DNA of 64,000 nucleotides. Source: Asterias amurensis. Taxonomy: Eukaryota; Echinodermata; Asteroidea; Forcipulatida; Asteriidae. The stretch lies in assembly GCF_032118995.1 (NCBI RefSeq), contig NC_092661.1:2730501-2794500 (forward strand). Direction: 5' to 3'. Position numbers and translations under genes: made by a program. The notes beneath the pieces were generated by a model, which ran no database searches, was not told the origin of the DNA, and worked only from the letters and a program-made list of their open reading frames with translations. Positions 335-24,500 of this stretch are shown piece after piece (the first letter of the stretch is position 1; each line of letters opens with the position of its first letter).

Positions 335-501
335 GTCGGTAGAAGCGAGAACGCAGAGCCGGGCTGGCTCGGTGGTGAGCTGAACGGTAAGACAGGCTGG
401 TTCCCTGAGAATTACGTTGAGAGGATGGGATCTGACGATGAGGAGGGGACCAGTGGCAAGGATGCTGGTTGGGCTAGCTTCGGAGATGCTGCTGGGAGTC
501 T
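335..501 (+). CDS. ITSN1: ITSN exon: second half of SH3A
   Basis: Encodes [20 protein letters not shown] then [11 protein letters not shown], the distal SH3 beta strands with the conserved W, G-W-F-P and N-Y-V residues, followed by an acidic linker. Acceptor CAG at 332-334, donor GTAAGT at 502. Starts in phase 0 and ends two bases into a codon. The first half of this SH3, with its ALYxF motif, is in an upstream exon outside the window. Confidence 0.93.
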
Positions 502-3500
502 GTAAGTCAAATCATCTCTTTGGAGTTGAACCTGTTTCAGACAGGCGTGCCAGAGTTTTCGCCGAACCAAATAGATTAGGAGCGACTCTAGGTCGACCCA
601 AATAAATTTTAGTTTTAGACAGTTTAAAGCCATTGGACACTTTCGGTACACAGTATTATCCAAGGCCCACACTTCGTGTATCACAACGTATGTATAAAAT
701 AACAAACCTGTGGAAATTTAGGCTCAATCGGTCATCGGAGTCGTGAGAAAATAACGGGAGAACCCTACCTTGTTTTCGCACGTTTTGCCGTGTCATGACA
801 TGTGTTTACTATAAATCCGTAATTCTCGTAGTCGAGAATTTGATAATTGTTTTAATGTTTTCTCAAAAAGTAAAGCATTTCATGGAATAATATTTCAAGA
901 GAAGTCTTTTACCATTACCTTCTGTAAACCCTATAAGTTATTTGTAAATCTGTGAACTTTTTTTTTTTTCTGTTATGAAAGTGTATAATGGCTTTAAATT
1001 TCAATTGTTTTCTCGTCTTGTTTCTTTCAGGGCGAAAGCTGAAACATTGTCTTCTGAAACGATGTCCACTTCTTCCTCTGCGTTCAGTCATTCGGTAAAG
1101 TCGTCCCAGTTCACTCATGTAACTCAAACGTCAACGCATCCAGCACCGTCACCCACACCTGGACAGGTAGCAAGAATTTTTTCTTAAAAAAAAAAACCAA
1201 GATGGCATTAACAATCCCCCCTAAAAACAGTTAAAGGAAAAACAAAGATTTTCTGAGTATGTATTAACATTGTTTTAACAAGTCCCCTACTTTGATTGAG
1301 TTTTATTTCAAAAAAGCCAAAAAACATCCCTCCAAAAGCTATTAAGGAAAATAACGAGATTCTTATTAGGCACAAACAAGTTTTGTATTTCACTGTTTTT
1401 CAAGCTGCAAACCCACAGTCATGATAATGAGCTCAGCAACCATAATACCCTAGACTGGATCATTCCACTTATCTAAGAGGGGAAAGGGAGGGGTCAGTTG
1501 TACAAGATCTGATCCTGTAACCATTTTGAGCTGCAAACAGTCTCATAGAATTCCCCCCAAGTTCCAGTTGAACTCTCTACCACTTAATCTTAGATCTTGT
1601 CAAATTAAAATCTTTTCCCAAAACTTATCTTGCGTCACAGGTTTTCAAGGACTAATTTTGTTGTGTCCGTTTTCTGTCGATTTGTTTTTGGTTTTACTGT
1701 GCCTTAGTCACACAGCAGGCTGGATGTGAGCGCATTGCAAGTCTTTATTATCCTTATTATTGATGTATTTTTTCATTTTAATAAGTCGTGTTTGTAATTC
1801 TGCAGGGCAAGAAGCTTGCAGATGGCGTCAAAGCTGAAGCGTTATACGACTGGCAAGCTAAGAAGGATAACCATCTATCATTCAAGGCTGGAGACATCCT
1901 CCTACTCAAGGAAGAGCAGGATATGTGGTGGATGGGAGAGCTGAACGGGAAACAGGGATGGTTCCCTAAGACACAGGTCAAGCAGCTTCGAATAGAGTCC
2001 GATAAGCCTGCAGCAGCCACGCCTGCAGCAGGTGTATCAGTAGCAGCGATTACATCCTCGCTGTTTGGTGAAGCAGCAACATTCAAGCCAGCTGCAGCAG
2101 CAGCTAAACCTCCTGCAGCAATAGCAAAACCTGCTGCAGCAACATCAACACCATCTGCAGCAACAGCAAAACCTGCTGCAGCACCCGTAGCAGCAGCACC
2201 CACGTCTCAACCAACACTGACGGCAACACCTGCTGCAGCAATAGCTCAACCTGCTGCAGTGACAGCTAAACCTGCAGCAGTCGCAACGCCAGCTACATCT
2301 GAACCCACGCTAGCCAAGGCGGGGGTGTCCGTAACAATGCCCACTACCCAACCACAACTGGGTGATTTTACTTCCATGTCGGCGAAGCCTGCAGTTTCAC
2401 CGACGCCTTTAGCAGACCAGATGCACCTAGGAGAAGGTATGAAGTTCTTAATAGTAATAGAAAAACAAATAATAAAGACTTAATGTGCACATATCCACCC
2501 TTCTGGGTGTTTATCTATACTATTAAAAGCGTAACCCGCGCCATCTTGGATTGAAAATTAGAAGGTCCAGTGGCATGGCATCCTTGTGGAATCCAACACG
2601 GTTGTATCGTTACAGACGTCGGGTTGCAAGTCTACAAAACCCTGAACCGAACTCCCTATTACGAGTTGTCTGATTGGCTGGAGACACGAGCGATATCTCC
2701 TTACATGTGTGGTTGTCTGGTTTTGATATGGGCCACCTGTTGGTCGAAGGGGGAAGCCGTAGGCTGCGCACAGAGTCACCTCTGTGGTTGTCTGGTTTTG
2801 ATATGGGCCACCTGTTGGTCTAGGGGGGGGGGGGAGCTGTAGGCTGCACACACAGCCACCTCTTTAGGTTTGAAGTGGGTGGCAACCTCGGACTCCCATT
2901 AACATTCCAGAGTGACTCATTGATGTTTCGCAGAGGGGTAAATGGCATTGTGTATATACCATTTTGTACAGGGGGGTTCAATTTCGCGTGTTAAATAAAA
3001 AACATTAGACTCTGTTACATGTGTTTATTACAATTAAGTCACTCATGTACGCCTACCCAACTTACCAGCATTTTTTAAACGCATCAAACAGCAACCCATT
3101 GTTGAGAAACTTTATTTGTTCCATTTAACTCTGCACCATTAGTGGTACAGTCCATATGTCATCCCCCACACACAGAACGTATACACGCAAAAGTTGAAAC
3201 ATTTTCAAAAAGAAAGTAAATGCATTACTGATTCTTTTCATATACATTGTGTAGGTTTTGCCAGTTAAACCTACAAAAGAGTACATGGAATCACTGTTTA
3301 AGAATAGTATGCTTTCATAGTTGAAAACGAACTTTGTGAAATATCAACGGCTGTTTTGAAGCTGTAAACGAACATTCCATTCAAAGTTCTGAAGCAACAA
3401 AATTGTTAGAACGCAGCCTGGTCAGGACTCAGGATGTAGATTTTGCCAAATCCTTTTTGTATTAAGCAATCGGCCGTCGGGCTTTGTTATCGAAAGAGCC

Positions 3501-6500
3501 CTCATGTGCAGCTGAATCGGGTACTTTTTACGAATTTCTCCATACAAAATTAACCAAACTGGCCTACAAACCCTTAAAACAACAAGGCAACTGTTTTCTG
3601 TAAGTGAATTAAGTGAGAGGATGTAGGGGTAGCTGGCATACAAACCCTCAAAATAACTAGGCAAATGTTTTCTGAAAGTGAATTAAGTGAGAGAATGTAG
3701 GAGTAGTTATTAAAGACCAACAAAATTACCGTTTCTATTATTTTAGTTTGTAAATAGGGTTCCACAGATAATTATGATAACATATTATAAATAAATTGGA
3801 TGTTTTATCAGGGGACTTTGTCACGCGGGGCACGTGCCCCGGCGGATGTTGACCAGAAAGTTTACATGAGAATTAATTGATATGACAATAAACTAAAAAT
3901 TAATGAGGCCGACGCTCTGTTACTCCCAAAAGTGGTGGTAAAAACAGATTAGATGTTGCACAGGATGTTCTGAAAACTCGCTTTATTTGGTGCTCAGACA
4001 ACTTTGTATGCGTCGTTGGACGTACACTCAATAAATCACGATGAATGGGGCCTTAGATTCTAAAATCGTGTACACGTCATTGGAAACAAAGCAAAAATCA
4101 TTCAACAGTTATAGCAACCAAATCATTAAATATATTTATTTTCAATACAATTTGCAGAAATTGTCTTTGTCGTTAAAGTCCATACCAACTGGCGCGTTTT
4201 TTTTTTTTATCTGCTGTATACCAGAACTTCTTCGAAGCTTCCTTTTCAGTCAGATAAACTCCACGGCTATTAGTGGCTGTGATTATGAGTTTGTTTTAAA
4301 AGAGGGTACCACTTTCATACAAGCCTTTTTAGTCGGATTTCTCCTGTGCTATTAAGTATTAGCAGTGGTGATTATTGTTGAGGGGGGAGACCAGACTTAG
4401 ACCACTAAAATCCGTGTAACTGAATTATACCAAAAGTGCTCAACACAATAAAATAAGTGTGTCATTGGAGCAATGTACGTGCTATCTAAGCATTATTACC
4501 CTTACAGTCATCTTAGCTGGGAAGTACTCAGTGCAGTGGATAAAATTGACACAATGACAAAAGCCGATTGAATTAAAACTATGCGTAAATGAGGCGAAAC
4601 ATAATCCACTTTACGGATGTGTTGGCCCGCTCGATCAACACTAAAATAAAATTATTACGAAATACCTTACATATTATGCCAAGTACCATCATTGCCAAGT
4701 ATACCCATCCCCAATATTAAAGCTCAATTCCAGAAACGAACATCAATTCCTTTAGTTGGAGAACGCAAGAGAGAAGGTGAGGAGGAGAGGCGACGCGTCG
4801 CGACGTTTCACAACTAAGTTGTGCACGCTCAACAATTAATTTTTATCAAAATACAACATTAATGACAAATTTTCATACCGATTATAAATACAATTTCTAA
4901 TCCAATCCTACGAAATGATTATTACCTGTAAGAATACCTCCCTTGCCCCCACATACCTCCCTTTCCCCCACATTACCTTTTACAACATTTGTATACTAGA
5001 ATCCTCCTCATCCTAGAATCCTCCTCATCTAGCGGGGTGCCGCGCGAAGCGCGGCATCCCGCTAGTAATAATAATAATAATTATAATAATAACAAATTCT
5101 TATATAGCGCATTTCACAATAACCGTATCAATGCGCTTTACCTTAGTGCCCTGGTCATAGGGCCAATAACATCCCTTTTTAATGTTTCTCAGCTCCCTTG
5201 GGAGTATACAGCCCTGAGCTGCCTGTAAGGCGCGTTAAACTAAAAACAAAAGAAAGAAAAAAGACCCAACAAAATCAGTCCTTAAATACCTGTGACATAA
5301 TAAGTTTTGAGAAGAGATTTAATTTTTTTTAATTTTTTGATACAAAGACAAGATTTAAGGTTAAGTGGTAGAGAGTCCCAGATGCGTCGAAAAGACCGTG
5401 GAAAAGACCGTAAATTCATTGAAACTTGTCAATGAGATGTCTTCAAATTGTCTTCATTTGGAAAAGTGCTGAATGGGAATAAAAACTTTTCTTCCAAGAA
5501 ATGTTAAAGTATGTTATTTTTACTGATTTGAAACATTTCATTGCAGAATATGTAACCCTGTATCCCTACACATCGGACGAAGCCAGTGACTTGCATTTCT
5601 CAGCCGGCGAAACCATCATGGTCACAAAGAGAGAAGGTGATTGGTGGATCGGAACAATAGGCGATAGGAAGGGAGTCTTCCCAGCCAATTACGTGCAGCC
5701 TAAGAGCAGTGTTGTGGCGTCGACAGACGCAGCACCAGTGAACTCTATACCTGCTGACAACACTCCGTGGGTGAATCAATCCGGAGACCAGGGGGAAGAC
5801 TATACGACGAGATTCCCTTACTCGTCCGATCAACCAGGGGATTTGAACTTCGAGGCCGGCCAGACTGTAACGGTCAGTAAGAAGGATGGTGATTGGTGGA
5901 CGGGTCGGATAGGGGACAGGGAAGGCATATTTCCATCCAATTACGTCGTCCCTAAGGGAGGAGAGGTACCGCAGATAGTTGAGAGTCCGCCTGTGGTTGC
6001 TGCTCTGTCGGCCGAGAATGCAGCTAAGACTGGATCACTTACACGGAAAGGTATGGATATGAAATTTATTTCTGGAAAGATCATAACAAAGTGGCCTGTC
6101 GTGGCCGAGCCGATGAGAGCACTGGACTCTTCTGGTCAGCAGAGTGTGGGTTGGAGTCCCGGTCGTGACACTCAATCATTATTGCTGTGAAGAAAAAAAA
6201 AAGGAAAAAATACGCCAACACCCACTTAAAATAAGCCCCACCTGTGACATCCATGTAGCATAAAAAGCACCTTCTGACATCATACCTCTTCACTTTTGCT
6301 TTAATCTCCTCTCTTACAACACTCACCCCCTTAATATTATTATGACACAAACTCACCATAAAAGCAGGTGACAAAAAAACTGAATATTGAAGCCTTGAGC
6401 GTAACTGAGGGATGAATATGAGCGCTATATTAAAAGCTATACTATTATTATTGTATATCTTTCTGCAAAAATAGCGTGAGTTATTGCTACTGGAAAATAC

Positions 6501-9500
6501 TGGATGTTGAACTGCCTTGAGCGTCACTGCGTGACGGATATGAGCGCTTTATAAGAAGCTACTATTATTATTATTTTATTCTGCAGAGACAGCGCGAGTT
6601 ATTGCGCCGTACACGAACTGGAAAATGTTGACATGGTTGAAGCGCCATGAGCGTCACTGAGTGACAGATATGAGCGCTACAGAAGAAGCTACTATTATCG
6701 TTAAATATTTTTTTGCAGAGATAGCGCGAGTTATTGCACCATACACCACTACTGGAAAATACTGAAAGTGGAAGTTAAACTGCCTTGAGCGTCACTGAGT
6801 GACGGATATGAGGGCTACATCAGAAGCCACTCTTAGTATCATTATTATTATCATTTTGCAGAGATAGCGCGAGTTATCGCACCCTACACCGCTACTAGTG
6901 CTGAGCAGCTGAGTCTATCGTTGGGTCAGCTCATTGCCGTCCGTAAGAAGAATCCCAGTGGCTGGTGGGAAGGAGAGCTCCAGGTAAGACCCTGACTTCT
7001 ACCTCTCAAAAATAAAGTAAACCATCTCAAGCTTGGGCTATGCACGCTGCATACGCATTGGAACCGGCCTTCAGGCCTATTCATTTTTGGAGCAGCATGT
7101 ACTTTGCACGCAGTGGTGGTCAGACATCAGACGGTGCATGGAGCCGGATCCCAAGCCGACTCGTTTGGGAAATGCCCCAAGACTCCTTGGCCCAATTTTG
7201 GAAAGCTGTTCAGCATAAAATACTGCGAGCAAACTTCTTTGCTGAAAATGTGGGTACCAATTACGACGGTGTAAGCTTTATTAAATTTCGGCTGGTAACC
7301 AGTTTCTGTTAAGCAAGGTTTTTCTGTGCTTAGCAAACTAACAGGCTTCATGGAATTGGGCCCCGGAGGGCAGGCCAGTTGAAATGTTGAAACAAATTAA
7401 GAGCTCTCTTCGCAGCAGAGAAAGTTAAAGATGCTATGTCAGATTTTTGGCCCCAAACATTAAATTGAGTGAATGGTATTTCAAAGAGTATCACCCGCTC
7501 TAACGAAAACAAGTTTAACTTTTACTTTTAATAGTCAGGAACCATGAAAAAAATTAAAACGTTTCTTATAAAACACATGAGAATTGGTCACGTGATATAT
7601 TGTCGGGATCCCGTCAAAAACCAATTTTGAGCACTTTATTTTACTGCTACTTAATTGACGGACTTTTTCGAGCAATGGCTCAAATGAAAGCTTGTAACTT
7701 TCTCGACCCCCATCAAAATACCTATTGAATTTTAAATCAAAATGTTTGGGTCAAACCGGCCAAAAATATGACATAGCATCTTTAATAACAAGCATTCCAA
7801 TAAGCCAAAGAAGTAGTCCTTTCTCAGGGCTCGTATTTAACACTGGACTGCCAGCCTGAGGTCAGTACTTTTAGTATTAGGCCATTAAAACCACAACAGG
7901 ACAAGCCCATTAGTGATAGTAAAACCTCATTGTGTAATGCCTTCTTTGTGAACTATACTGAACTGAACTTGTACAATTATGTTAAAGGCAGTGGACACTA
8001 TTGGTAATTGTCAAAGACTAACCTTCACAGTTGGTGTATCTCAACATATGCATAAAATACACACCTGTGAAAATTTGAGCTCAGTCGGTCGTCGTACTTG
8101 CAAGATAAAAATGAAAGAAAAAACACCCTTGTCACACGAAGTTGTGTGCAATTAGATGGTTGATTTCGAGACCTCAAGTTCTGAGGTCTTGAAATCAAAT
8201 TCGTGGAAAATTACTTCTTTCTCGAAAACTATGGCACTTCAGAGGGAGCCGTTTCTCACAATGTTTTATACCATCAGCCTCTCCCCATTACTTGTCACCA
8301 AGAAAGGTTTTATGCTAATAATTATTTTGAGTAATTACCAATAGTGTCCACTGCCTTTAAGTTGACGTTTGTCCGTTTCCTTACAGGCGCGTGGCAAGAA
8401 GAAGCAGATTGGCTGGTTCCCTGCCAATTACGTACAAATAATGGGTGGAACTGGAACGCCGGGTACCAGCACACCATCAGAGCTAGGATCACCCACAACC
8501 GCAATTTCTCCAAAACCGGTTTGTGATTTTTATTTATTTATTATTTCACTTTATTTCACTTTATTTCACTTTATTTCACGCATGTAGCTGAAAAAGAATT
8601 TCTTTCATAATATACAATGTTTAACCTGTTAAACCTGGTGCACAAGGCAGTCGCTAGCGACCACCAAAAACATGCCAAATTGGACTTTTATAAACAGTTG
8701 TAACTTAAAAACTACTACCGCCATATATATCCCCCTCATTCGATTGTTTAGAGCGAGTGTTGAGCTTTCATTTGGTGTGATGCTCAACAGGGGGTGTTAT
8801 TGAAACATTTTGAGAAAAACAGGGTTGAACATGTTCTTTTTTTTTGCATTTTTAAAGATTGATCTGTGCACCAAAGGGTTAAAAAAAAAAAGAATTTCTG
8901 TAAAAAAAATTCACAAAGTCACATTATAACATTTTGTCAACTTGCTTCACAGGAATACAGAAGATTGCAAAACTACGAAAAGTTTTGTATACCTGCTTTC
9001 TACATGTACATATCTTAATACTTGTTTTGACAAGATATTTCCAGTAGGAATGACTTTTGACTTCAACCATTTTGACTTAGCGGAAGGAGGTAGATCTTAC
9101 GGTCGTTGTGGGCATTTTGGTACAAATTACCTATGGCCACAATGGTCTTTAGAGGGTTAAAAAAGAATGGTCAAACAAAAAAGTTACATGTACTTGGTTT
9201 TTCAGTTTATGTGTCTTTTCCGTTTCAGGTCGGGGATAGAGTAGCCACTCCCTCTGCTGATTCAGGTAAGTTTTCCAGTCAACCCATACCCGTTTTATAC
9301 CCACACCCGTTTTATACCCATACCCATTTTATACCCATACCTCAGTTTTAACCCCAGGCTCTCTTTTCAGTCCCAGTATGTCAAGTGATCACTTTATACC
9401 CAAATTTGAAGCAGAACGAGAATTAGCAATCCTTCCAGACGGGAAATGATTATCCTTTGCTCCACCCATACCCGTTTTATACCCAGTTTTAACCCAAGGC

Positions 9501-12500
9501 TCTCCTTCACCCCCAGTTTGTCAGGTGATCACGTTATACCCGTACGTGAAGCAGAACGATGATGAGCTGTCCTTCGGGAAGGGAATTGTTCTCAACGTCA
9601 CTAGTAAAGCAGACAAAGATTGGTGGAAGGGGGAACTCAACGGCAGCACGGGGGTCTTTCCCGCAAACTACGTCCAGGAACTTAGCGAGGCAGGAAAAGG
9701 GAATGACGTTAATTGTAAGTAGACTTTGTTTTTTCATTGTTTACATTCATAACTTCTTTGCATCAAGATTGAGAAAGCGAGCTAGCTTTTTTATTTGTTT
9801 AAATTTTTGGGAGTAGAGGAAAGAAGTAGAGATCCCTATCAGAGCGTCGTGGTTGATCACACAAACATTAACACTGTCTGCGACTATTTTGTCGACTCTA
9901 CTTATTCTGTATAATGCCTTAAAGACACTGGACACTATTGGTAATTGTCAAAGACTAGTCTTCTCACTTGGTGTATCTCAACATATGCATAAAATAACAA
10001 ACCTGTGGAAATTTGAGCTCAATCGGTCGTCGAAGTTGCGAGAATATTAATGAAAGAAAAAAACACCCTTGTCACACAAAGTTGTGTGCGTTTAGATGGT
10101 TGATTTCTAAATCTGAGGTATCGAAATCAAATTCTTGGAAAATTACGTCTTTCGCGAAAACTACTCCACTTCAGAGGGAGCCGTTTCTCACAATGTTTTA
10201 TACTACCAACCTCTCCCCATTACTCATTACCAAGTAAGATTTCGTGCCAATAATTATTTCGAGTAATTACCAATAGTGTCCACTGCCTTTAAGCCTCCTG
10301 TGCTGACAAAAACAATGACGATCTTCATGCCACGTCTTGGGGGCAATTTACAGGCAACCAGTTCCAGGCAATCTGCAAGAAGAAAGGTCATTCTAGTTTC
10401 AGTTTACTAAGTATTTTTCTATGGGGGGGATGTAGTTACAGCTAGGAGATTGCCAATTTGTTCCTTATGCATGCATCGCAGTAAGTTGCCTTCAAGACGC
10501 CTGAAAAAAATTTCCCTGTGTGACAAGGGCCCAATTTCATGGTTCTGCTAATACCGTAAGCAAAGAATCGTACACTTATGGAAGCAGGGGATCTGTGCTT
10601 ACGTCAAGCTTATTTCATGGGTTAACTGAGATTTTTGGCTTGCGAGCATGTGTACTCCACATTACAAGGCTAGCACAGAAAATTGATACTTGTGGTGCAA
10701 GCGGAGAGTGGTGATTGTTAGTGCAGAACTCGGCGCTTAGCAGAGCGGTGAAATTGGGGCCCAAGCTACGCCCTCTAGACTTTAAAGCAACAATTCTTCA
10801 GTCTGTCTCCTGGCCTTTTCATTATCTTCTACTTACCTCATCTCTGCTCTCTTTATCTTTTGGCTTGTAGAACTCCGTACTCAGTTTGCGGCTCGAAAGA
10901 CCCACACCCGACAAGAAGCCAGATTTAAACCCCTCCCCAAAAAGGAATCTCTCATCCTCTCTCTGTTGTGTTGCCACGGCAACAAAACTGCAACGGCGAC
11001 ACCTGTCGGGTCGACAACTCCCAAAAAAACAAAAACCTTCCCGAGCGTCTCTCTGTCTTTATGTTTGTGTCCAAAGCATGCAATGGTGTTTTTGATCCTG
11101 GCTTTTGTAAAGTCGGGTAGTGGGTCTTTCACAGCGGAGTTCTGCAGGTGTGATTAAGACAAGTTTCTTTCATCAAACTGTGGCCGTATCGCAGCTGGGG
11201 TGCGTCTTGGCCGGTCGTAACCAATAAATGTTTCCGTTGGCTTGGTTAGACACTAATCAGTGACCAAAACCTATGTTAGTTATATCCGCCAAAACGCACC
11301 CCTGTTTTCAATCTCATCTTTATTTTTTTTTCTGAAACTTGAAAATGATGACGTCAAAAGTGCAAGCAATTTTTTTCTTTCGCATGATGAGCAGTGTTTA
11401 GACCCACTACGAGACTATAGCCGTAAACTGTTAATATTTAAAGGAACACGTTGCCTTGGATCGGACGAGTTGGTCTGTAAAAAGGGTTTGTAACCGTTTG
11501 TTATAAAATGCATATACGGTTGGAAAGATGTTTTAAAAGTAGAATATAATGATCCACACAAATTTGCCTCAAAATTGCGTGGTTTTCCTTTTACTGTGCG
11601 AACTAACACGGTCTGCCATTTATGACTCCCATAAATGGCCGACCGAGGTAAAAGGAAAACCGTGCAGTTTAGAGGCATGTTTTTGTGGATCATTGTATTC
11701 TACTTTAAAAACTTCTTCCTACCCATATGCAGTTTATAACAAACGGTTACAAATGCTTTTCAAAGACCAACTCGACCAATCCAAGGCAACGTGTTCCTTT
11801 AATCAGGCCAGTATTTCTCTTTGATAGGCATGATAGGGTTTGCTTCCTTTTTGTTTACTCCTGTGAACTACACTAAGACTGTTTAAAAAATGAAATGAAA
11901 TCATGTAAACATTAACTGTAAGTGTCAGATAATTACTTCTTATGCAACTCTTGTTTCTATAAGTCCATCTGGGCTCTTAATGTATTATTGTGACTTCCAG
12001 AAAATTTCTTTGTAATCTGCCAAAATCTTTCGAAAGTACTGCCATTTATTTCAAAGAGGCTTTTGTGAATTGTAAAGGGTTCAGAAAAGTTAGAGGAGCA
12101 ATTTTTCAATCTGACGAAAGGGTGGTGGGGATTGTGAGTTGATAGAAGGTGAACGGACAATTGTGGGGTGTTTTTTTCCAACGCTAAGTGAGACATTTTG
12201 AAACTCAAGATGGCAGCAAACTATTTTGAGGTGAAAAGGGTCATCTTTAAAGTCAATATTTGAGTTTATTGAATTCTTGAAGAGAATATTTATTTCTGTA
12301 ACCGTCTCCGGACATGGCAATTTTTATTTGACATTTTTTTAAAGCGTTCTTTTCCATTGGAAAATGTTTACCAAACAGGGATTCTGTTTTGTATTTGATA
12401 TGAAAGTTAGTTTGTCAACATTGGATAGGAATTAATCTGTCAGTTGAGAACATAACCTTTGTACTCTGGCCTTTTTGGCACAAGACGCTTATGGCCACTG

Positions 12501-21500: not shown

Positions 21501-24500
21501 ATTCGTTTTTCACAAAAAAATAGTGTAGTGGCTAATTTCAAACGGGAGTAACTCAGCAACGCGATACACCCCAAAGCTCAGACACATACCAAATTACTGC
21601 TGCTGATATGTTCTTTCCAGCCATGCATATAAGTCAATTCCTGAAATTGCCTACATCTGACTCATTTTCACAGAGCGTGTCACATTATGCTTTTCCCCTA
21701 TGGCAGACAATTTCGAGCACTTTATCTGGAGATATCTCAAAGTGCTTTGTCACAAGTGCACAGAGCTGCTTTGGATAATGTGAGACACACTTAAATTTAG
21801 CGTCTTGAAGACGCTTTCAAGGTGCTGTGGTGCAATCTGTAGCCAATTTACAGAGCTAAACATTTTCAAGGAAATCAACAAGCGCTGGACTGCGCTAGAA
21901 ACACTGATTGTTGTTTTCAAAACTTCTGATTGATAGTAAGCCAAGTTTTATAAGTTATTTAACTTTGAATTGTGTTGTAATTTTTTAACAGCTCCCTCGC
22001 ATGACGGCCTACATCCGATTTTGTAGTTGTCAATTGAATGCATCGAGTTTGCTACAACAGAGGCTAGACAATGATGCAGAATTTAAAGAGTACATAAAGG
22101 TAACGAAGAATTCTCTGTCAGTTTTTTTTTTTTTTTTAGCTTTTGGAATGAAGAATTTAGTAATTAAAGGCAGTAGACACTATTGGTAATTACTCAAAAT
22201 AGTTATGAGCACAAAACCTTACTTGGTAACGAGTAATGGGGAGAGGTTGATGGTATAAAACATTGTGAGAAACGGCTCCCTCTGAAGTAACGTAGTTTTG
22301 GAGAAAGAAGTAATTTTCCACGAATTCGATGTCGAAACCTCGGATTTAGAACTTGAGGTCCCGAAATCAAGCATCTGAAAGCACACAACTTCGTGTGACA
22401 AGGGTGTTTTTCTTTTATAGTTATCTCGCAACTTCGACGACCAATTGAGCTCAAATTTTCAAAGGTTTGTTATCTTATGCATATGTTGAGATACACCAAG
22501 TGAGAAGATTGGTCTTTGACTATTACCAATAGTGTCCATGTCTTTAAGTGAATAAAAGCTGGCAGTTGGTGCTAAGGCAGACAACTTTTGAAATTTTGCT
22601 GAACATTTTGTGCTTAATAAAAAAGCTAGCAGGATACCAGTATACCACTGTTGCACGCTGTGATTGGGATCCATGGCGTTTTGTACACCCGAGGGGGGAA
22701 ATGGAACCCGAGGCGAAGAGGGTGCCATTTTCCCCCCGACGGTGTACAAAACCCATGGACCCCAATCACAGCATGCAACAATTTTTTTGTTATACCTGAG
22801 TAACATTCATATTCCTCTTCTCGAAGTTCTGTTGTTATCATCAAACATTTTTACGATGGAGTATTCATTGTTTAATAAGCAGACGAACAAGAAACAATTC
22901 CTGACTGTTCACTCGAACCCGCAGGTGTTTCGAACACAGCGCTGGAAATCGACCAAAACTGGGAACGATCAAGGTGATGTACACCGGTGTACATCACTTT
23001 TCATGTTACCCAACCCCTGTAACCATGGTAACATGCGTTTTTGTTACACGTCACGTGATTGGTTCTGGACTTATCAAACTTCACAGTTTGTTACCGAGGT
23101 GTAACAATCAAAGATGGTGCATGACACATGGTAAATTGGCTAGTAACCTTATGTGCTTTACCACTTCGAGAGCTTGAGTTTGATGCTCTTAGCCACTCGG
23201 CCACAAGACGCCACATTAAAATATGATGTCTTAGGCCCACAGTATTTTATATAATTTTTTTATATTGTTTTTATTATATTTTAGAAATTAGCCCAGGATC
23301 CTCGTGTTAAAGGAATGCCAGTTAGCAGCTACTTGATCAAACCAATGCAGAGGATCACAAGATATCCACTGCTAATAAAAAAGGTCAGTTCAAATTATCT
23401 TTGCTTCTTAAAATATTATCAGCCTTGAGTTATAAGAGATGTTAAATTTGCATCGGGGATAAAGAATATTAATTTTGGTTTTTACCCATACATGGATGTG
23501 TGTTAGCACTGTTTACTCAGTACTTTCCCGAGTCATGTGAAAAAATATCACAGGCATGTTACTCGGGTGGGATTTGAACCCACGACCCTTGCAATTCTAG
23601 AGCAGTGTCTTACCAACTAGACTACCGAGGTTGCCCGGTAGTTAGAGGCAGTTTGAATCCTTTATTTTGGCAGCGGGTACCGCAACGATAATAACAGATG
23701 TTAAATTTGCATCGGGGATAAAGAATATTAATTTTGGTTTTTACCCATACACCGATGTGTGCTAGCACTGTATACTCAGGACTTTCCCAAGTCCTGTGCA
23801 AAAATATCACAGGCATGTTACTCGGGTGGGATTTGAAATTACGACCCTTGCAATTCTAGAGCAGTGTCTTACCAACTAGACTACCGAGGTTGCCCGGTAG
23901 CTAGAGGCAGTTCGAATTCTATGTTTTGGCAGGGGGTACCAGCCTTTAGTAATAAAATAATTATGATAATAAAAAAAATGACAAGTTCTTCTATAGTGCA
24001 TTAGCTTAATAGTGCATTTCACAATGCACTTAACATCAGTTTATTAGTGCCCTGGTCATTGGGCCAACAACATTCCTTTAATCTTTCTCATTGTGGAAGT
24101 GTAGTGGCCGAGCGGTTAAGAGCACCGAATTCAAACCCTGGTGTTTCTGATCAGCAGAGTGTGGGTCCGAATCCCCAGCCGTGACACTTGTGTCCTTAAG
24201 CAAGACACTTAACCATTGCTTCGTCCTTCGGATGGGACGTAAAGCCGTTGGTCCCATGTGTTGTGTAAACGCATATAAAAGAACCCAGTGCACTTATCGT
24301 AAAGAGAAGGGGTTCGCCCCGGTGTTCCTGGCTGGATTGGCAGCATATTGCGCCACAGCACCTTGTAAACCATTACGTGGTGCTTAAGGATTAGGTCTTA
24401 TATCTCAAACTTCGTACCACTCCTTGCAGTAATAATACCTGGCGCTTTGTATCCTTTGGCAAAAGGCGCGTTATAAATACGGTTATTATTATTATCTCCC

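Follow-up and report, generated by a model that had tools for sequence, protein, structure and literature searches.

The window, a stretch of 64,000 nucleotides from Asterias amurensis (C14:2730501-2794500), carries on its forward strand the SH3 exons of an intersectin gene, followed by pieces of a RhoGEF (DH) domain and of a C2 domain (Table 1). The SH3A, SH3B, SH3C, SH3D and SH3E domains of this gene match their human ITSN counterparts and, by their coordinates, stand in the same order. A spliced model from SH3B to SH3E comprises 541 codons and is free of stops. Between the second exon of SH3A (167 nt), whose end is in phase 2, and the SH3B exon, which opens in phase 0, the phases disagree, so that an additional exon is to be expected in the interval 501-1806. 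Behind its SH3 domain, the SH3B exon encodes an Ala/Pro-rich linker of about 145 residues (1998-2436), which lies ahead of SH3C. In the search with SH3E, Grb2 chains outrank the intersectins because the two SH3 domains of Grb2 add up in score.

Table 1. Exons and domains of the Asterias amurensis intersectin gene, in positions of the window.
Feature	Position	Strand	Remarks
SH3A, second exon	335..501	+	first part lies upstream of the window; joined domain best matches intersectin-1 (PDB 6h5t, E 3.4e-21); splice sites
SH3B exon with long Ala/Pro-rich linker	1806..2436	+	intersectin-1 (4iim, E 1.5e-20); ends in phase 1 (...LGE)
SH3C-doublet exon	5547..6050	+	504 nt; copy 1, linker, copy 2, linker; AG/GT boundaries; frame continuous with the SH3B and SH3D exons
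SH3C copy 1	5547..5704	+	EYVTLYPY...NYVQPK; 53 codons; Pfam SH3
Linker, copy 1 to copy 2	5705..5797	+	31 codons
SH3C copy 2	5798..5956	+	DYTTRFPY...NYVVPK; 53 codons; Pfam SH3
Linker, copy 2 to SH3D	5957..6049	+	31 codons
SH3D, first exon	6862..6983	+	joined domain best matches intersectin-1 (PDB 6gbu_B, E 5.6e-29)
SH3D, second exon	8387..8518	+	joined domain best matches intersectin-1 (PDB 6gbu_B)
Small linker exon, SH3D to SH3E	9229..9265	+	model based solely on splice sites and frame
SH3E exon	9517..9714	+	intersectin-2 (1udl, E 4e-21) and intersectin-1 (3jv3, E 2.3e-19), after three Grb2 chains
RhoGEF (DH) piece	23279..23392 (C14:2753779-2753892)	+	PF00621, 36.1 bits, over cut-off; profile 116-153 of 180
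C2 piece	29089..29268 (C14:2759589-2759768)	+	PF00168, 59.1 bits, over cut-off

Long-form intersectins carry DH and C2 domains downstream of their SH3 domains, and here pieces of both are found downstream on the same strand, the RhoGEF match containing one TAG. An EH piece was found upstream, on the + strand at C14:2718587-2718715 (28.2 bits, over cut-off). The EH, DH and C2 pieces share the strand of the SH3 exons and probably belong with them to one long transcript. No second intersectin was seen among the best candidates scored in the genome searched (491.5 Mb, 23 contigs). The SH3D query gave eight matches there, two of them from the intersectin gene itself (95 and 96%) and the six others at 38 to 44%.

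An element of about 377 bp with inverted ends (AAGGCAGTGGACACTATTGGTAATT...) occupies 7985-8361 and many other places in C14:2670501-2794500 (124 kb). It is represented by 42 BLAST pieces, 15 of which (query included) span at least 350 of the 377 bases, and appears to resemble a non-autonomous DNA transposon. Two copies in the same orientation, at -72 to 310 and at 7985-8361, end just 24 and 25 bases upstream of the acceptors at 335 (SH3A exon 2) and 8387 (SH3D exon 2), so that the branch points of both introns may lie inside the element. Elsewhere in the genome, two nuclear copies of mitochondrial DNA on C5 (near 659 kb and 676 kb) lie 16.4 kb apart; they match one another at 100% over a length of 3342 bases, and match the mitochondrial contig C23 at 97.4%. 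The pair reflects either a tandem insertion of recent date or a duplication made in assembly. In the mitochondrial COI gene (C23), translated with NCBI table 9, the nine AAA codons are read as Asn (STNHKD, FGNW and RMNNMSFW are examples), which is also the residue of animal COI in these motifs. The ATA codons are read as Ile at places where animal COI has Ile. Both readings fit an echinoderm, although table 9 serves flatworms as well.

The original prediction for this locus was a symmetrical exon holding two full SH3C-like domains, with which the coordinates, splice sites, phases (1/1), length (504 nt) and Pfam search all agree. The exon at 5547-6050 is bounded by a canonical acceptor and donor (ttgcag/AATATG ... 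CGGAAAG/gtatgg), and its length is a multiple of 3. Since it opens in phase 1, its coding frame begins at 5546, base 1 of the first codon of copy 1 being supplied by the preceding exon after splicing. Read from 5546, the exon yields 168 residues without a stop, and stops appear when it is read from 5547. The Pfam search returned two SH3 stretches (SH3_1, 79 bits, cut-off 22.9). A single GT[AG]AG string (at 5877) and a single pyrimidine-led YAG (at 5601) occur inside the exon.

The two copies are spaced by exactly 84 codons (252 nt), which is half of the exon. Duplication of a whole exon followed by loss of the intron could be argued from this spacing and is unproven. No remaining similarity was found between the two linkers (2/31 aa and 26/93 nt identical, shuffle p 0.35), so that the exact spacing may be a coincidence.

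Both copies find their best PDB match in 1uhf, entitled as the third SH3 domain of human intersectin-2, with E-values of 9e-21 for copy 1 (next match 1.3e-11) and 4.3e-22 for copy 2 (next match 5.9e-13). In either case 1uhf leads the next match by about nine orders of magnitude. The copies are 50.9-62.3% identical to human SH3C sequences, among them a presumed row for ITSN1, vs 20.8-45.3% to the A, B, D and E domains of the same gene. Since both are SH3C, and A, B, D and E each pair with a human counterpart, the gene has six SH3 domains in total, with SH3C occurring twice, instead of the five that are usual in animals. The PDB matches therefore support what had been claimed about the intersectin identity of the gene, the SH3C identity of both copies and the count of six. 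SH3 number is better regarded as typical than as defining of intersectin, because the family spans 2 to 5 in the published excerpts (PMC3645719, PMC4824007). A scan of viral contigs with the paired SH3C domains found no relatives.

At the protein level 31 of 53 residues are the same in both copies (58.5%, close to the 60% or so that had been estimated by eye), and 103 of 159 nucleotides are identical, which greatly exceeds what chance would give. By codon position, 38 of 53 first, 43 of 53 second and 22 of 53 third bases agree. The same codon is used for 19 of the 31 common residues, and for 6 of the 13 common residues that have fourfold codons. Silent sites have thus drifted far while the protein was kept, which points to an old duplication under protein-level selection; judged by this codon pattern, the duplication is real and old, and evidently under selection. 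A model of copy 2, built from an alignment with three other SH3 domains of the window, reached a mean pLDDT of 93.3, with 1uhf as its top fold match (rmsd 0.9). The whole 168-residue product of the exon, folded alone as a single sequence, gave low confidence (mean pLDDT 56.6, pTM 0.31), the 10-residue pLDDT means over copy 1 ranging from about 63 to 83 in this generally low fold.

The SH3B exon ends in a sequence (AGACCAG...GGAGAAG) similar to the one just before copy 2 (AGACCAG...GGGGAAG). Of 2000 codon shuffles 179, and of 2000 base shuffles 499, equalled the local score of this likeness. A boundary-anchored score was equalled at 28 of the 1230 places of the window that end in AAG, and at 159 of all 63969 places (compared places included in both counts). 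It is a weak hint that copy 2 may derive from a spliced template.

A small tree was computed for the age of the duplication in a single run over 16 short rows and 55 columns; 3 of its 13 inner branches are starred. The rows were the six SH3 domains of the gene, human ITSN stretches taken from PDB alignments, two Grb2 domains and a presumed ITSN1 SH3C sequence, which also served in the identity comparison. This ITSN1 row is identical to 1uhf at 37 of 56 residues (66.1%). An excerpt of the literature likewise gives 66.1% for the SH3C domains of ITSN1 and ITSN2 (PMC3723668). The other PDB SH3 matches, which comprise 286 distinct sequences for copy 1 and 290 for copy 2 (E up to 0.001), were left out. 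The four SH3C rows cluster together with a support of 100/99. SH3A falls beside SH3D, and the placement of SH3E and Grb2 is poorly supported (SH3E group 56/0), so that the tree cannot serve to reconstruct deeper SH3 history. Identity of the gene's other domains to their human counterparts ranges from 57.7 to 76.7%; at 58.5%, the two copies are therefore about as diverged from each other as the domains of this gene are from the human ones. We consider it likely that the only intersectin gene seen in this genome has undergone a tandem duplication of SH3C, now encoded twice in one exon, and that this probably happened within the echinoderm lineage.

It had further been proposed that the ligand preference of copy 2 may have shifted. 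As described in the original prediction, the Tyr of the ALYDY motif is Phe in copy 2 (TRFPY vs TLYPY in copy 1), and the WW, GDR and FP-NY residues are present in both aligned copies. The Tyr of the ALYDY strand is a ligand-pocket position of the SH3 structure. Replacement of Leu-Tyr by Arg-Phe at this place could in principle have opened a new class of ligands to copy 2, and the longer tree branch of copy 2 (0.44 vs 0.26) is consistent with such neofunctionalisation. Nevertheless, in the PDB alignments Phe occupies the same position in Grb2 C-SH3 (alfdf) and CIN85 SH3A (vefdy), and the change from Tyr is for this reason poor evidence of a new preference. The retention of the WW, GDR and FP-NY residues also speaks against it, and site counts show no difference in rate, since copy 1 alone shares a residue with human ITSN2 SH3C at 7 sites and copy 2 alone at 8. 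CD2AP chains aligned to CIN85 SH3A carry Tyr (veydy), and the fold matches of the copy 2 model include 2bz8, a structure of CIN85 SH3A in complex with a Cbl-b peptide. The proposed shift is thus a weak claim, and neofunctionalisation of copy 2 appears to us unlikely.

An ancient duplication, in the deuterostome or bilaterian ancestor, with one copy lost in chordates, is somewhat less probable again. Identity between the copies (31/53) is no higher than that of either copy to human ITSN2 SH3C (60.4%, 32/53, for copy 1 and 62.3%, 33/53, for copy 2), which an early origin with later loss would also produce, and with those 7 and 8 sites neither copy is clearly ancestral. Topologies in which one or the other copy pairs with the human SH3C rows are 3.26 log units worse and not rejected (p-AU 0.070). 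The best tree, however, joins the two copies to each other (support 91/84), six residues are common to both and absent from human ITSN2 SH3C, and excerpts of the published surveys describe five SH3 domains in most animals (PMC4824007, PMC3645719). The small tree thus weakly favours a duplication that postdates the separation from chordates.

False duplication in the assembly, or a pseudo-exon, is so improbable that it may be dismissed: with only 103/159 nucleotides and 22/53 third positions identical, the copies are far too diverged for the assembly artefact against which the original prediction had cautioned, and they are stop-free, with valid splice sites and matching phases, in an exon whose DNA matches only itself among the best candidates scored in the 491-Mb genome of 23 contigs.

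Under the preferred reading, a tandem duplication of SH3C within the echinoderms, the gene product would by orthology function as an endocytic scaffold. Excerpts of published work report dynamin 1, synaptojanin 1, SOS1, SPRY2 and Sema6A as partners pulled down by the SH3A, SH3C and SH3E domains of human ITSN2 (PMC3723668). Both SH3C copies may bind proline-rich endocytic ligands as published for the human domain (dynamin, synaptojanin, SOS1). The second copy would then provide an extra binding site for proline-rich tails of this kind, which may result in higher avidity. Removal of the exon from the spliced model leaves the frame intact, LGE being joined to EIARVIAPY, and bears out the expectation that such a symmetrical exon can drop out in frame. 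In humans, splicing of exons 25 and 26 yields an isoform without SH3C, as an excerpt of PMC3645719 describes. Given the in-frame join and this human isoform, skipping of the SH3C exon in Asterias amurensis is plausible, though unproven. Since no intron separates the copies, splicing is expected to include or skip the pair as one unit, which would give isoforms with six or four SH3 domains.

A more far-reaching version, which we regard as doubtful although still somewhat more credible than the alternatives above, is that the sixth SH3 domain originated a single time early on the echinoderm stem and has persisted over hundreds of millions of years, the copies forming an inseparable bivalent SH3C-SH3C unit and a splice switch between six and four SH3 domains. 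If true, the switch would be a larger single-step change in scaffold valency than any we know of in an intersectin, and a conserved increase to six would demonstrate that the SH3 array of intersectin is still able to grow. The doubled SH3C offers a natural experiment on the copy number of a domain that is optional in humans too.

As a change in domain number in a well-studied protein, the doubling of SH3C is modest, and its mechanism is not new. In the excerpts of PMC3645719, most intersectins have five SH3 domains, several insects four and a fungus two, and two intersectin loci are listed for Strongylocentrotus purpuratus, the GEF column being marked as partial clones. Expansion of the SH3 number from two to five in holozoans is described in part of PMC4824007, and five SH3 domains are given for intersectin-1L (PMC2892021, excerpt). 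The premise that described intersectins have five SH3 domains or fewer agrees with these sources and, for the fly, with an excerpt of PMC8321554. No intersectin with six is described in the excerpts of the open-licence literature searched, and public gene models may already show one. Drosophila Dap160 is likewise an invertebrate intersectin, encoded by one gene and acting as an SH3-rich endocytic scaffold (PMC3645719), but it has four SH3 domains (PMC8321554, PMC3645719) and no GEF part in the PMC3645719 table. Six SH3 domains are found in DNMBP/Tuba, also a Cdc42 GEF (PMC10453029, excerpt), which is, however, another protein and is compared here by SH3 count alone. The long forms of human and mouse ITSN1 and ITSN2 share the domain order of the Asterias amurensis gene as far as it could be traced (EH piece, SH3A-E, DH piece, C2 piece). 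Whereas human ITSN1 and ITSN2 have one SH3C among five SH3 domains, the Asterias amurensis gene has SH3C doubled, with both copies in one exon.
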